A stretch of DNA of 35,295 bases from Chitinophaga pinensis (GTDB lineage: Bacteria > Bacteroidota > Bacteroidia > Chitinophagales > Chitinophagaceae). How positions within the stretch are numbered: the stretch's first letter is position 1; each line of letters begins with the position of its first letter. The stretch lies in contig CAMBYG010000012.1 of the NCBI GenBank assembly GCA_945872085.1, positions 1 to 35,295 on the forward strand. The letters run 5' to 3'. Below, piece after piece: positions 751-35,010 of this stretch. A program made the position numbers and the translations under genes. The notes beneath the pieces are model-generated. The model was not told where the DNA came from, searched no databases, and saw only the letters and a program-made list of their open reading frames with translations.

Positions 751-1920
751 TTATTGCATAAAAATGTATGTATCTACATCTTTTTTGGTGATAGATTGAT
801 TGGACATAATCACTAAACGCTCAATAATATTTCTCAACTCTCGAATATTGCCTGTCCAATTATGTTGTTGTAAAGCATCAATAGCAGCTTTTTCAATGGC
901 TTTTGGAGAGTGTTTATATTCTTCATTAATTAGCTTTAAAAAATGATGAATGAGTTGTGGTACATCTTCTTTTCGATCATTTAAAGAAGGTACATGTATT
1001 AAAATCACACCTAATCTATGATAGAGATCTAACCTGAAGTTCTTTTCTTCAACTTCTCTTAATAGATCTTTATTGGTAGCTGCTAAAATTCTAACATCAA
1101 TATTAATTTCTTTTTCTCCACCAACCCGAGTAATCTTCCCTTCTTGTAATGCTCGAAGTACTTTTGCTTGAGCAGACAGGCCCATATCACCAATTTCGTC
1201 AAGAAATAAAGTGCCGCCATTGGCTTGTTCAAACTTACCTATACGTTGTTTAATTGCCGATGTAAAAGATCCTTTTTCATGGCCAAATAATTCACTTTCT
1301 ATCAATTCAGAAGGAATTGCTGAACAGTTTACTTCTATAAATGGACCATTAGCGCGACTACTTTTTTCATGTAAGGCTCGTGCTACTAATTCTTTACCAA
1401 CTCCATTTTCGCCTGTTATTAATACACGCGCGTCTGTAGGAGCAACTTTTTCAATAGTTTCTTTTATTTTAATTAAGGCTGCGGAAGAGCCAATCATTTC
1501 CGATTGATTTATTTTAGTAACTTTCTTTCTCAATTGTTTCGTTTCAACAATTAAGTTGCTTCTGTCTATGGCGTTTCTAATAGTTATTAACAGCCGATTT
1601 AAATCGGGTGGTTTTGCAATAAAATCATAGGCACCTTTTTTTACCGCATCTACGGCAGCATCTATAGTGCCATGGCCTGATATCAAAATAAAGGGGATAT
1701 CTGGTTTTAATTCCAGTGCTTGATCTAGGACTTCTATGCCATCCATTTTAGGCATTTTTATATCACATAAAATACAATCATAATCATGGTCCTTTATTTT
1801 TTTGATGCCTTCCAAGCCATCAATGGCTTCTTCTACTTCAAATCCTTCAAAACTTAAAATATCTTTAAGCGCAGACCGAATTGCTCTTTCATCGTCAATA
1901 ACTAGAACTTTTTGTGGCAT
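751..1920 (-). CDS. Sigma-54-dependent response regulator (NtrC family) without a DNA-binding domain
   Basis: A 389-residue two-component response regulator that should activate RNA polymerase carrying sigma-54. Residues 1-120 form a receiver domain (acidic pair D9/D10, phospho-acceptor D53, K103). Residues about 140-375 form the AAA+ activator domain, with Walker A GENGVGKE (170-177), Walker B TLFLDEIG (237-244), arginine finger region FRLDLYHR and sensor 2 NWTGNIREL (354-362). The sigma-54 contact loop, normally GAFTGA, reads GSFTSA (217-222). Typical NtrC relatives are about 440-470 residues and end in a Fis-type helix-turn-helix; this one stops just after the AAA+ domain and is followed at once by a terminator, so no frameshifted remnant is hidden downstream. 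It may act from solution, as FlgR and CtcC do. Its partner kinase is not in the window. It lies 28 nt after the MORN-repeat gene and is probably co-transcribed with it. Confidence 0.92.
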   Translation of the reverse strand: MPQKVLVIDDERAIRSALKDILSFEGFEVEEAIDGLEGIKKIKDHDYDCILCDIKMPKMDGIEVLDQALELKPDIPFILISGHGTIDAAVDAVKKGAYDFIAKPPDLNRLLITIRNAIDRSNLIVETKQLRKKVTKINQSEMIGSSAALIKIKETIEKVAPTDARVLITGENGVGKELVARALHEKSSRANGPFIEVNCSAIPSELIESELFGHEKGSFTSAIKQRIGKFEQANGGTLFLDEIGDMGLSAQAKVLRALQEGKITRVGGEKEINIDVRILAATNKDLLREVEEKNFRLDLYHRLGVILIHVPSLNDRKEDVPQLIHHFLKLINEEYKHSPKAIEKAAIDALQQHNWTGNIRELRNIIERLVIMSNQSITKKDVDTYIFMQ

Positions 1921-8544: not shown

Positions 8545-8939
8545 TCGAATTCAATATTCCAATCGGTAAAATCATTCAGGTCGCGGCGTTCTTTCTTAGA
8601 CGGGCGACCTGTTTTACTTAATCGTTTTCCCGTATAAAAAGAGGTGCCCAATTTAATGTTGTGTAATTGATCCTCTTCGCTTGTAATATCTTTGTAATGC
8701 AAAATAGCCGTTTCGTAATTGACTCTCTTTTCTAGTAGGCCCAATACCTCAATGGTGTTTTTTTTTCCCTCGTTTCGAATATCATAGCATTCGCCAATTT
8801 TTACAGATTTAGATGGCTTACAACTAGCGCCATCTTTCAATTTCACCTTTCCATCATCGCAAGCTTTGGTAGCCAAACTTCTCGTTTTAAACAAGCGTAT
8901 GGCCCATAAATATTTATCAATGCGTATTCCTTTATCCAT
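8541..8939 (-). CDS. S4-domain RNA-binding protein, Hsp15 family
   Basis: A 132-residue protein of the Hsp15 (HslR)/RqcP-like family. The S4 RNA-binding domain spans about residues 5-65 (RIDKYLWAIRLFKTRSLATKAC, then GKVKL and KIGECYDI). The C-terminal basic tail GRPSKKERRDL is the hallmark of Hsp15, which in E. coli binds stalled 50S subunits carrying nascent chain-tRNA. It lies nine nt after the PagL-like gene on the same strand, so it is likely the second gene of that operon. The stop overlaps the convergent lipoprotein gene by four bases. Confidence 0.88.
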   Translation of the reverse strand: MDKGIRIDKYLWAIRLFKTRSLATKACDDGKVKLKDGASCKPSKSVKIGECYDIRNEGKKNTIEVLGLLEKRVNYETAILHYKDITSEEDQLHNIKLGTSFYTGKRLSKTGRPSKKERRDLNDFTDWNIEFD

Positions 8940-31784: not shown

Positions 31785-32765
31785 TTATTTAAAAAGTGCT
31801 TGTGCTCTGTGCAATCGGTCGTTGATGGCACGACCTAAATCTTGATCTGGAAAGCGCTCTGCTATAATTAGGTCTAAACCATAAGCATCTGCTTCTCTTA
31901 AGGCCCTAAATAAGTTGGCGGCGGCGGCTGATAAATTATGCTGCGAAGAAAGTGTCCATACTTGAGCGCCCTGCAAAGCTTCATAAGTATTAGTAAAAGC
32001 AATGATTCCTATTTTTTTATCTGCAAGCTCATTATACAAAAGAGCAGGGTCGCCAATGATAAGCGGCGTATGCGTTGCATAATGACTTTTTAATTGGCCT
32101 GCAGTGGTAGGGGCTTGCTCATTATGCGTTTGTAGTACTACCGTATCGTTGATACATGCTGCTATTGCTTCTACACTAATGCCTCCCACTCGGTGCACCA
32201 CTACTTTATGTTGATCTACACTTACAATCGTACTTTCTAAACCAATAGAGCAAGTGCCGCCATCTAAAATATAGGGAATCTTTCCGTTTAGCCCTTGTAA
32301 TACATGAGCTGCAGTAACCGGACTTACATAACCAAAAGGATTGGCACTAGGTGCGGCTAATGGAAAAGGAAGCTGTTGCAATAACGACAAGCACAAAGGA
32401 TGATTGGGAACTCGAAGGGCTACATAAGGACTACCTGCCGTAACCAAATCGGGAATACAGTCTTTTTTAGGCACTAAAAAAGTTATAGGACCTGGGCAAA
32501 ATTTTTCGGCTAGTGTAGATAAAAGCGTTGGAATTGTTTCGGCATAATTTGATGCTTCAGTCCAATCTTTAATATGCACTATAAGCGGATTAAAATGCGG
32601 ACGGTTTTTAGCTTCAAATATTTTCAATACAGCATTTTCTGATAAGGCATTTGCTGCCAATCCGTATACGGTTTCTGTAGGAACGGCTACAACTTCATTT
32701 GCGCTTAGAAAATGAATAGCCGGTTCTAGTTCCGTTCCAATTTTTGTAGAAAATAAATGGTCCAT
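31785..32765 (-). CDS. L-threonylcarbamoyladenylate synthase, Sua5 type
   Basis: A 326-residue enzyme that makes threonylcarbamoyl-AMP for the t6A modification at position 37 of ANN-decoding tRNAs. The YrdC domain (about 10-200) has VPTETVYGLAANAL, KNRPHFNPLIVHI, CPGPITFLVPK, ALRVPNHPL, APSANPFGYVSPV and GLESTIVSV. The linker THNEQAPTTAGQLKSHYATHTPL and the C-terminal domain identify the longer Sua5 form rather than short TsaC. Its ATG overlaps the stop of the upstream nitrilase-like gene by one base (TAATG on the minus strand), so translation is probably coupled. Confidence 0.94.
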   Translation of the reverse strand: MDHLFSTKIGTELEPAIHFLSANEVVAVPTETVYGLAANALSENAVLKIFEAKNRPHFNPLIVHIKDWTEASNYAETIPTLLSTLAEKFCPGPITFLVPKKDCIPDLVTAGSPYVALRVPNHPLCLSLLQQLPFPLAAPSANPFGYVSPVTAAHVLQGLNGKIPYILDGGTCSIGLESTIVSVDQHKVVVHRVGGISVEAIAACINDTVVLQTHNEQAPTTAGQLKSHYATHTPLIIGDPALLYNELADKKIGIIAFTNTYEALQGAQVWTLSSQHNLSAAAANLFRALREADAYGLDLIIAERFPDQDLGRAINDRLHRAQALFK

Positions 32766-33550
32766 TATAAAATTAAGAAATCATCGGCGTCTTTCAGGAA
32801 AGGCAATTGTTGCCTTGCTGCGTTCAGTTCCGATGCTTCTAACGCAAAGGTAATACCAATTTCTTGATTGCTTAAGGTCGTTAGCCAATTTCCCATTGGG
32901 TCTATGGCACCACTATGACCAATATAGTGCAAGCCATTTTGATCATCACCAATTCTATTCACCGCCAACACATAACATTGATTTTCTATAGCACGCGCTT
33001 GCAATAAGGTGCGCCAAGCATGATCTCTTTTTTCTGGCCAATTGGCTACATAAATGATAGCATCATATTCTTCCTGCTTATTTCTAGCCCAAACCGGAAA
33101 TCTAAGATCGTAACAGATTTGGATTAAAAACTTCCATCCACCCAAGGATACGATCACGCGTTTGTCGCCAGATGTATAGGCTTTGTCTTCTCCGGCGTAG
33201 GCAAACAAATGTTTTTTATCGTAGGCATGTAATTGCCCGTTGGGTAATACCCACAAAAAGCGGTTATAGTACTTACCCTCTTCTAAAAGAGCGCAAGAGC
33301 CAGCTATAACAGAAGCATATTTTTTTGCCATTTCCTGCATCCAAGGTATAACTTGTTCGCCAGAGGGGTCTAAAAGTGTAGCTGGAGTCATGGTAAATCC
33401 AGTAGAAAACATTTCGGGTAAAATAATTAAAGTATTATGAGCTTGATGCAGCTCAATAAAATCTTCAATTTTGGATAGATTTTGTCTATAATCATCCGAA
33501 ACGATATCAATTTGTACTAAAAGAACACTTAAATTCTCCTTTTTTCCCAT
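32765..33550 (-). CDS. Carbon-nitrogen hydrolase, omega-amidase (YafV/Nit2)-like
   Basis: A 261-residue nitrilase-superfamily amidase with the Glu-Lys-Cys triad: E46 (ILPEMFSTGF), K112 (YDKKHLF) and C146 (IQICYDLRFP). EMFSTGF and YDLRFPVWARN are typical of the YafV/Nit2 omega-amidases, which hydrolyse 2-oxoglutaramate or 2-oxosuccinamate as a metabolite-repair step. ATG 33550 is chosen; an in-frame GTG six codons upstream lies inside the sigma-54 promoter of the first small RNA (33561-33577), so it is unlikely. The gene is back to back with that RNA gene, leaving only 12 bases between the ATG and the -24 element. First gene of an operon with tsaC/Sua5. Confidence 0.9.
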   Translation of the reverse strand: MGKKENLSVLLVQIDIVSDDYRQNLSKIEDFIELHQAHNTLIILPEMFSTGFTMTPATLLDPSGEQVIPWMQEMAKKYASVIAGSCALLEEGKYYNRFLWVLPNGQLHAYDKKHLFAYAGEDKAYTSGDKRVIVSLGGWKFLIQICYDLRFPVWARNKQEEYDAIIYVANWPEKRDHAWRTLLQARAIENQCYVLAVNRIGDDQNGLHYIGHSGAIDPMGNWLTTLSNQEIGITFALEASELNAARQQLPFLKDADDFLIL

Positions 33551-33562
33551 TTTAAAAAAGTT

Positions 33563-33577
33563 TGGCACGGTTATTGT
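33563..33577 (+). promoter_or_regulatory. Sigma-54 promoter of small RNA 1
   Basis: TGGCAC (33563-33568), five bases, TTGT (33574-33577): matches the -24/-12 consensus TGGCAC-N5-TTGC with one change (T for C at -12). Invariant GG and G are 11 bases apart as required. Predicted transcription start about 33589. Confidence 0.75.
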
Positions 33578-33588
33578 ATATACTAATT

Positions 33589-33700
33589 CAAGATTACTTT
33601 ATTGGTTAAGTAATTATCGTTAGTGTGTATGTAAATACGTTATGCCTTTATCGGTTTATTGGTTGTTACTAAGGAGCGGGGAACCGCTCCTTATCTTTTT
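33589..33700 (+). ncRNA. Predicted sigma-54-dependent small RNA, copy 1
   Basis: A predicted transcript of about 112 nt from the sigma-54 start near 33589 to the T-run ending at 33700. It begins with a perfect 7-bp hairpin, ATTACTT (33593-33599) with AAGTAAT (33608-33614), whose 8-nt loop reads TATTGGTT. The decamer TTTATYGGTT occurs three times (33598-33607, 33647-33656, 33655-33664), the last two in the single-stranded 3' part. It ends in a 9-bp terminator hairpin. A short reading frame from ATG 33642 runs through the terminator, so a coding role looks less likely. I do not recognise the RNA as a known family. Existence is inferred from promoter, terminator and conservation of the duplicate. 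Confidence 0.7.
33671..33700 (+). terminator. Terminator of small RNA 1
   Basis: Stem AAGGAGCGG/CCGCTCCTT (33671-33679 and 33684-33692) with loop GGAA, followed by ATCTTTTT. Confidence 0.92.
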
Positions 33701-33768
33701 TATAAAGCTAAGGTATAAATAGAAAAATAAAAAACTTGTACATCCTGAAAGATAATTAAATTTTTTAT

Positions 33769-33783
33769 AATTGATTATCAATT
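33769..33783. repeat. 15-bp palindrome between the two small RNA genes
   Basis: AATTGATTATCAATT is a perfect palindrome around a central T, located 44 bases upstream of the -24 element of small RNA 2. Its half-site ATCAATT also occurs at 33506-33512, 51 bases upstream of the -24 element of copy 1, inside the nitrilase-like gene. Possible activator site; AT-rich chance is the alternative. Confidence 0.5.
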
Positions 33784-33826
33784 GTTTATAAAATTTTTGT
33801 AAAATAATTTTAGTTATTTAAATGTT

Positions 33827-33841
33827 TGGCACGGTTATTGT
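33827..33841 (+). promoter_or_regulatory. Sigma-54 promoter of small RNA 2
   Basis: TGGCAC (33827-33832), five bases, TTGT (33838-33841), identical to the copy 1 promoter. Predicted transcription start about 33853. Confidence 0.75.
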
Positions 33842-33852
33842 ATACACTAATA

Positions 33853-33964
33853 CAAGATTACTTTATTGGTTAAGTAATTATCGTTAGTGTGAATGTAAAT
33901 ACGTTATGCCTTTATCGGTTTATTGGTTGTTACTAAGGAGCGGAGAACCGCTCCTTATTTTTTT
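33853..33964 (+). ncRNA. Predicted sigma-54-dependent small RNA, copy 2
   Basis: Paralogue of the copy 1 RNA, about 112 nt. The 5' hairpin (33857-33863 with 33872-33878), the three TTTATYGGTT decamers and the terminator stem are all unchanged. The differences inside the transcript fall at 33892 (linker), 33944 (terminator loop) and 33959 (T-run), so none disrupts a stem. It lies 32 nt upstream of the dipeptide epimerase gene on the same strand; the T-run leads into a TTG that could serve as the -33 element of that gene. Confidence 0.7.
33935..33964 (+). terminator. Terminator of small RNA 2
   Basis: Stem AAGGAGCGG/CCGCTCCTT (33935-33943 and 33948-33956) with loop AGAA, followed by a run of seven T. 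Confidence 0.92.
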
Positions 33965-33992
33965 GTACTCCTGCAAAATAGTTGCACCTTTG
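33963..33992 (+). promoter_or_regulatory. Possible promoter of the dipeptide epimerase gene
   Basis: TTG (33963-33965), 19-nt spacer, CACCTTTG (33985-33992), one mismatch from TAnnTTTG. The box ends four bases before the ATG, so a leaderless transcript would result; it overlaps the terminator T-run of small RNA 2. Confidence 0.35.
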
Positions 33993-33996
33993 AGCT

Positions 33997-35010
33997 ATGT
34001 TACAACTCCATTACAAGAAAGTTCGTCATGCTTTCGAATACCCTTTTACCATTTCTAAAGGAACAAAAACACATCAAGAAGCATTGGTAGTAGCTTTAGG
34101 CATGGGCCCTTACTGGGGCTTTGGAGAAGCCTGCAAAATAAGCTACTATGGTATAGACCTCGATGCCATGATAAGCCTGCTGGAAAGCAAAAAACAGGTC
34201 ATACAAAAATACGCCCTCACCGACCCAGAACGCTTTTGGCATTTTTTACACCACCTTTTTCCCGATCAGCATTTTTTAATAGCCGCTCTCGATTGTGCCG
34301 GTTGGGATCTGTTTGCTAAAATGCGACAAAAGAAAGTATACCAATTAATAGGCGTTGAACAATTACACGCACTTAGCACCAATTATACCATTGGTTTGGC
34401 TGAGCCAGCCGAAATGCTCGAGAAAATGAAGGCACACCCTTGGCCTATTTATAAAGTAAAAATTAGCAACGCAAACGATATCGATACCTTGGCGCTACTT
34501 AGAGCTCATACTAAGTCGCTTATTCGAATAGATGCCAATGAAGCATTGGATGTAACTACTACTTTAAAATTGCTTCCCGAATTTGAAAAATTAGCTATTG
34601 AACTGATAGAGCAGCCCATTGCAAAAGATAATTATGAGGGCATGCAAGAGCTAAAAGCAAAAAGCAGTATCCCGTTTTATGCAGATGAAGCTTGTGTAAC
34701 TGAAAACGATGTAATACGTTGCAAAAATGCATTTCATGGAATCACGATTAAACTTAGTAAATGTGGTGGTATAACACCGGCTTTAAGAATGATAAAAGAA
34801 GCCCGTAGCATTGGATTGTCTATAATGCTAGGCAATATGAACGAATGCAGTATTGGCACGGCTCCTTTAGTGCACTTGCAATATTTGGTAGATAAAATGG
34901 ATGCCGATGGGCCTTTGTTGCTAAAAGAAGATAGTGGTAAAGGGCTCTTTTATGAGCATGCTATAGCCTGTGTAGAAGATAAAAACGGATTGGGCATACA
35001 AGCCCTTTAA
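33997..35010 (+). CDS. Dipeptide epimerase (L-Ala-D/L-Glu epimerase-like, enolase superfamily)
   Basis: A 337-residue enolase-superfamily enzyme. The C-terminal barrel has the KxK base motif (K153, K155), metal ligands D179 (RIDANEA), E205 (IELIEQP) and D230 (YADEA), the second base K255 (IKLSKCGG), and the DADGP motif (302-306) that binds the substrate amino group in dipeptide epimerases. E. coli YcjG uses such a fold to epimerise L-Ala-D-Glu from recycled murein peptides; the exact dipeptide specificity here is uncertain. It lies just downstream of small RNA 2, and its TAA overlaps the stop of the convergent small lipoprotein gene in TTAA (35007-35010). Confidence 0.92.
   Translation: MLQLHYKKVRHAFEYPFTISKGTKTHQEALVVALGMGPYWGFGEACKISYYGIDLDAMISLLESKKQVIQKYALTDPERFWHFLHHLFPDQHFLIAALDCAGWDLFAKMRQKKVYQLIGVEQLHALSTNYTIGLAEPAEMLEKMKAHPWPIYKVKISNANDIDTLALLRAHTKSLIRIDANEALDVTTTLKLLPEFEKLAIELIEQPIAKDNYEGMQELKAKSSIPFYADEACVTENDVIRCKNAFHGITIKLSKCGGITPALRMIKEARSIGLSIMLGNMNECSIGTAPLVHLQYLVDKMDADGPLLLKEDSGKGLFYEHAIACVEDKNGLGIQAL

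Follow-up and report, generated by a model that had tools for sequence, protein, structure and literature searches.

Small RNAs (sRNAs) driven by sigma-54 are best known from Proteobacteria. Qrr1-5 of Vibrio are several near-identical RNAs of ~100 nt with sigma-54 promoters, and such promoters also drive the paralogous sRNAs CrcZ/CrcY/CrcX of Pseudomonas and GlmY/GlmZ of Enterobacteria. For the Bacteroidota, a 2025 survey named grpE and groES as sigma-54 dependent (PMC12316311), and Flavobacterium psychrophilum has sigma-54-motif promoters ahead of groES-groEL, dnaK, grpE-dnaJ, htpG, lon, clpB, and skp, as well as ahead of Rfp36, a putative regulatory RNA that is listed singly (PMC9723704). 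FopS, a paralogous sRNA family of Bacteroides with 14 members, is transcribed from a primary sigma promoter rather than a sigma-54 promoter; its members block translation near start codons, and a FopS/GibS model is said to have been deposited in Rfam (PMC11697453).

Here we analyzed a 35,295-nt stretch of Chitinophaga pinensis DNA (referred to as the window) that carries two near-identical blocks, A and B. We consider these, with a probability of roughly 0.75, to be two paralogous, probably sigma-54-dependent sRNA genes with intrinsic terminators. The pair is new in sequence and known only from this genus. It resembles Qrr1-5 in comprising near-identical RNAs of ~100 nt with sigma-54 promoters, but there is no sequence match, quorum-sensing neighbours are absent, and the Qrr RNAs are Hfq based. 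Paralogy and sigma-54 promoters are likewise common to the pair and to CrcZ/CrcY/CrcX and GlmY/GlmZ. A covariance-model search of Rfam returned no match of any kind for the block, Qrr included, and the Qrr comparison made in the original prediction thus holds as an analogy. The further suggestion that nothing of this sort had been described in Bacteroidota was too strong, given Rfp36 and FopS. Rfp36, compared here by description and not by sequence, is also an independent RNA behind a sigma-54 promoter in this phylum, but it is single whereas A and B are paired. FopS/GibS of Bacteroides thetaiotaomicron are paralogous sRNAs with terminators, like A and B, but differ in their primary sigma promoter and in that the pair had no match in Rfam, where the presence of the FopS/GibS model is unconfirmed.

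Results

Two copies of one promoter-RNA-terminator unit

A repeat search of the window revealed a direct repeat of 145 nt (copy A, 33556-33700; copy B, 33820-33964) with 96% identity and a spacing of 264 nt. Realignment of the 140-base blocks within it (33561-33700 and 33825-33964) reproduced exactly the spacing and the five differences reported originally, at positions 33581, 33588, 33628, 33680, and 33695. All five leave the two promoter elements (-24 and -12) and the stems of the 5' hairpin and the terminator untouched. As had also been proposed, the limits of the repeat coincide with promoter and terminator, each copy being exactly one promoter-RNA-terminator unit (Table 1). The case of a scattered repeat or mobile element, raised at the outset as an objection, was not borne out: A and B are the sole copies in the 1.9-Mb genome assembly, and blastn of the block against plasmids and phages gave no match.

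Table 1. Features of the window and of related loci
Feature	Position	Strand	Basis
Sigma-54 activator, receiver + AAA+ (NtrC-type)	751..1920	-	PF00072, PF00158, AAA_lid_14
Carbon-nitrogen hydrolase, divergent upstream neighbour	32765..33550	-	PF00795, 5e-36
Sigma-54 -24/-12 promoter, copy A (TTGGCACGGTTATTGTA)	33562..33578	+	strict consensus
Small RNA A, ~112 nt	33589..33700	+	predicted start
5' hairpin of RNA A (GATTACTT...AAGTAATT)	33592..33615	+	fold
Intrinsic terminator of A	33670..33700	+	10-bp G+C-rich stem, then T-run
Sigma-54 -24/-12 promoter, copy B	33826..33842	+	identical to copy A promoter
Small RNA B, ~112 nt	33853..33964	+	predicted start; block 96% identical to A
5' hairpin of RNA B	33856..33879	+	fold
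Intrinsic terminator of B	33934..33964	+	stem + T-run
Enolase-superfamily (MR/MLE, epimerase-like) gene, downstream of B	33997..35010	+	PF13378, 6e-27
Wider-family loci	L041 902-1018; L171-L185 ~1501-1620; L178 83-198		sigma-54 promoter, core, covarying terminator
hsp20-linked core variants	L199, L205, L207, L212		PF00011, E 1e-18 to 1e-23
Outlier target site, pseudouridine-synthase-like gene start	L234 ~8795-8840 (G000:C5)		predicted pairing

The start of RNA A was placed 12 nt past the -12 position and at the substitution boundary described below. In each RNA, the predicted fold comprises a 5' hairpin of 8 bp and, ahead of a U-run, a terminator stem of 10 bp; both RNAs fold better than shuffled sequences (z of -3.1 for A and -2.9 for B). 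An outer helix extending upstream of +1 was rejected, as it is not kept in a sister species (G001). We also observed a perfect inverted repeat, AATTGAT-T-ATCAATT (33769-33783), centred ~77 nt upstream of the predicted start of B and with no clear counterpart upstream of A; it is a possible activator site.

The predicted RNA is conserved in sister species

Two other species of the genus (G001 and G002) also carry the block, which adjoins the same carbon-nitrogen hydrolase gene in G001 and the same epimerase-like gene in G002. Because the contigs of both sisters break off at the repeat, the tandem layout was seen in one genome only; such contig ends are expected if the layout is tandem there too, without being proof of it.

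In G001, none of the 81 nt of the RNA body had changed, while the neighbouring gene differed at 163 of 783 bases (79% identity); by simple arithmetic, the chance of no change in 81 nt at that gene's rate is near 6e-9. Because the RNA body has remained 100% identical beside a gene that drifted to 79%, the predicted transcript is under selection. The 18-nt promoter element showed only 1 change across A, B, G001, and G002. Substitutions instead cluster between -12 and +1 and 3' of the terminator stem: the 10-nt spacer before +1 varies, and the next 81 nt are those identical in G001. Since changes gather in these two places, a start at ~33589 gains independent support. In G002, the 5' hairpin carries one G-U-preserving change, and the terminator stem is shifted by one base, yet a 9-bp stem still forms (by inspection).

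Sigma-54 sites and machinery

The strict consensus TGGCACN5TTGYW matched the window twice, against 0.10 matches expected, a count reached in none of 100 shuffles; the promoters of A and B are the only strict sites there. Genome-wide, 13 strict sites were found and none with a reversed control pattern. The other 11 all lie inside open reading frames (ORFs), leaving the A and B promoters as the only intergenic ones. When one mismatch was allowed, 72 of the 81 distinct sites fell within ORFs of at least 120 codons, and the sites outside ORFs included one before a secreted-type protein and one, TTGGCAAGCTTTTTGCT, 55 nt before grpE-dnaJ (locus L167, contig G000:C72), which is plausibly a sigma-54 promoter.

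All three species of the genus possess rpoN, and the genome contains two strong matches to sigma-54 activators. In the one encoded in the window we found no DNA-binding domain, its AAA_lid_14 domain ending at residue 386 of 389. The second, whose gene lies between miaB and an lptE-like gene, has a C-terminal helix-turn-helix (by inspection). With the block conserved in two sister species and rpoN and two activators present, an sRNA pair with sigma-54 promoters and terminators, the core of the original prediction, is the best reading, while the novelty claimed for it was overstated.

A wider sRNA family in Chitinophagaceae

A covariance model of the window pair, run over 396 genomes of the family, gave only three weak matches beyond the genus. 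One (L040) was discarded as a terminator-only likeness and another (L042) as the sigma-54 promoter of a secreted protein. The third (L041, Segetibacter sp. RYN_294) has the same promoter, hairpin spacing, and terminator, and it opened up a wider family. With a 3-mismatch pattern, only the genus and Segetibacter matched well among the 396 genomes, the others representing 3-mismatch background. A pattern scan of 84,980 species yielded 32 matches, about the number expected by chance, and promoter, hairpin, and terminator occurred together only in the genus and Segetibacter.

A model built from the single Segetibacter RNA detected strong homologues, with E values down to 1e-20, in all 10 Segetibacter-genus genomes searched and also in nine other sampled genera of Chitinophagaceae, often several per genome. 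Other Chitinophagaceae have sigma-54-driven predicted sRNAs of similar size and layout. Most copies share the 23-nt core, CTCATAAGCAGTTAGTTTTGGTT, without a single difference, across genera. The class with sigma-54 promoters comprises 16 genomes and often adjoins prfA or a convergent VanZ-like gene (names by inspection). Its terminator covaries, with 5 pairs changed on both sides and 99.3% of cells paired, a result obtained in none of 500 shuffles. Core variants with 1 to 3 mismatches, again with a terminator, were found 3' of Hsp20 genes, 6 to 34 nt separating stop codon and core, which suggests 3'UTR-derived versions of the family RNA. Rfam held no match for this family, and we found no description of it in the open-access literature. 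With its 23-nt core and its two contexts, including hsp20 3' ends, it can be tested directly in culturable Chitinophagaceae.

At locus L189, which comes from the same order but not the same family, a tandem pair of predicted sigma-54-driven short RNAs with terminators was observed at 1314-1432 and 1501-1624, with a Flavo-1 RNA (RF01705) directly upstream (1111-1198). A model of 16 members of the Chitinophagaceae family recognized this locus weakly (E of 3e-4).

Alternative explanations

The blocks could be cis-acting leaders or attenuators, in which case transcripts started at B would run past its terminator and into the epimerase-like gene, 32 nt beyond; B does lie in line with, and just upstream of, that gene on the + strand. 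Copy A, however, ends in the same terminator and is separated from B by an AT-rich spacer of ~120 nt, no alternative antiterminator fold is apparent, and a primary-sigma-like promoter (TTTG-N19-CACCTTTG, 33962-33992, recognized by eye and kept in G002) overlaps terminator B and precedes the epimerase-like ATG. We regard this explanation as unlikely. The promoter just mentioned would place the start of transcription at about the ATG itself. Recent neutral tandem duplication, in which the blocks would not be functional sRNA genes, would account for there being only five differences between A and B, but it is disfavoured by the identity of the RNA body in G001 beside a diverged flanking gene, and we consider it very improbable. 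Equally little credence can be given to a small peptide encoded from the ATG at 33643 (MPLSVYWLLLRSGEP...): although the open frame is present in both copies, it runs through the terminator stem, the A and B frames reach different 3' ends, and the stem changes in G002 keep the pairing while altering several residues of the frame (by inspection).

Descent from the wider family is a different matter, as it is compatible with A and B being sigma-54-dependent sRNA genes and adds common origin to that reading. A and B would then be diverged members of the family with the core CUCAUAAGCAGUUAGUUUUGGUU, perhaps with the same targets. Alike in both are a TTGGCA-N5-TTG promoter, a 5' hairpin, UUGGUUG before a 9- to 10-bp terminator, a length of ~90 to 110 nt, and paralogues within a genome; Segetibacter shares with the pair, in addition, the spacing from the -24/-12 element to the hairpin and the AAGATTACTT/AAGTA hairpin itself. 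The Segetibacter model also ranked A as its top match in the window (25.9 bits, E of 0.003), a score resting on promoter and hairpin and less telling since L041 had been chosen by that same likeness. The 16-member model, in contrast, did not recognize A, which scored only 14.0 bits (E of 0.5) and came third in the window. A and B lack the CUCAUAAGCAGUUAG core, and their neighbours differ from the prfA or VanZ-like genes common beside the family; the core CUCAUAAGCAGUUAGUUUUGGUU was absent from the window and from roughly 0.6 Mb of the genome searched. In anchored comparisons, the likeness of the pre-terminator segment of A and B to the family core was equalled by ~1 in 10 shuffles, and its likeness to the L189 pair by 14 to 20 of 3000. 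The likeness of A and B to the 5' ends of other Segetibacter species was equalled by 239 of 2000 shuffles. Common origin with fast evolution is thus possible and unproven, and we lean somewhat against membership.

Proposed function and candidate targets

If A and B are indeed two copies of one sRNA gene, sigma-54 RNA polymerase activated by an enhancer-binding protein would probably start at ~33589 and ~33853 and stop at the terminators, producing two nearly identical RNAs of ~112 nt each. Transcription, the start sites, and the choice of activator are what we infer here. The product would likely be a regulatory RNA made upon induction of the sigma-54 (protein-folding/envelope stress) regulon, and two copies would provide a higher dose and a faster response. 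We propose a role in protein-folding stress because chaperone genes carry sigma-54 promoters in Flavobacterium and other Bacteroidota and because of the site before grpE-dnaJ here; the company kept in the regulon suggests this role, and for the stress signal itself we see the odds as almost balanced, slightly on the negative side. We favour, by a modest margin, a mode of action in which the unpaired middle of the RNA, whose end ahead of the terminator reads UUUAUUGGUUGUUAC, would base pair with mRNAs. If A and B are expressed, Bacteroidota would own sigma-54-driven sRNAs, apparently tied to the sigma-54 chaperone regulon of the phylum. As a tentative generalization, which we consider less likely than not, the RNA arm of a sigma-54 response to protein-folding stress in Chitinophagales may consist of multicopy sRNAs that evolve fast and are driven by sigma-54, with the window pair as the version of this genus and related RNAs in the 3' ends of hsp20 mRNAs.

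For the wider family, the idea of a seed (the complement of the core contains AUGAGAAAA) was abandoned: top matches included exported proteins, with no significant enrichment. When the unpaired region of the window RNA was compared with 347 start regions (~435 kb, about a fifth of the genome), it showed, overall, no more pairing than 60 shuffled RNAs did. A single outlier, over the opening codons of a pseudouridine-synthase-like gene, reached a predicted -38.0 kcal/mol, compared to shuffle minima of -30.3 (standard deviation, 2.1), making this gene a candidate target of the RNA.
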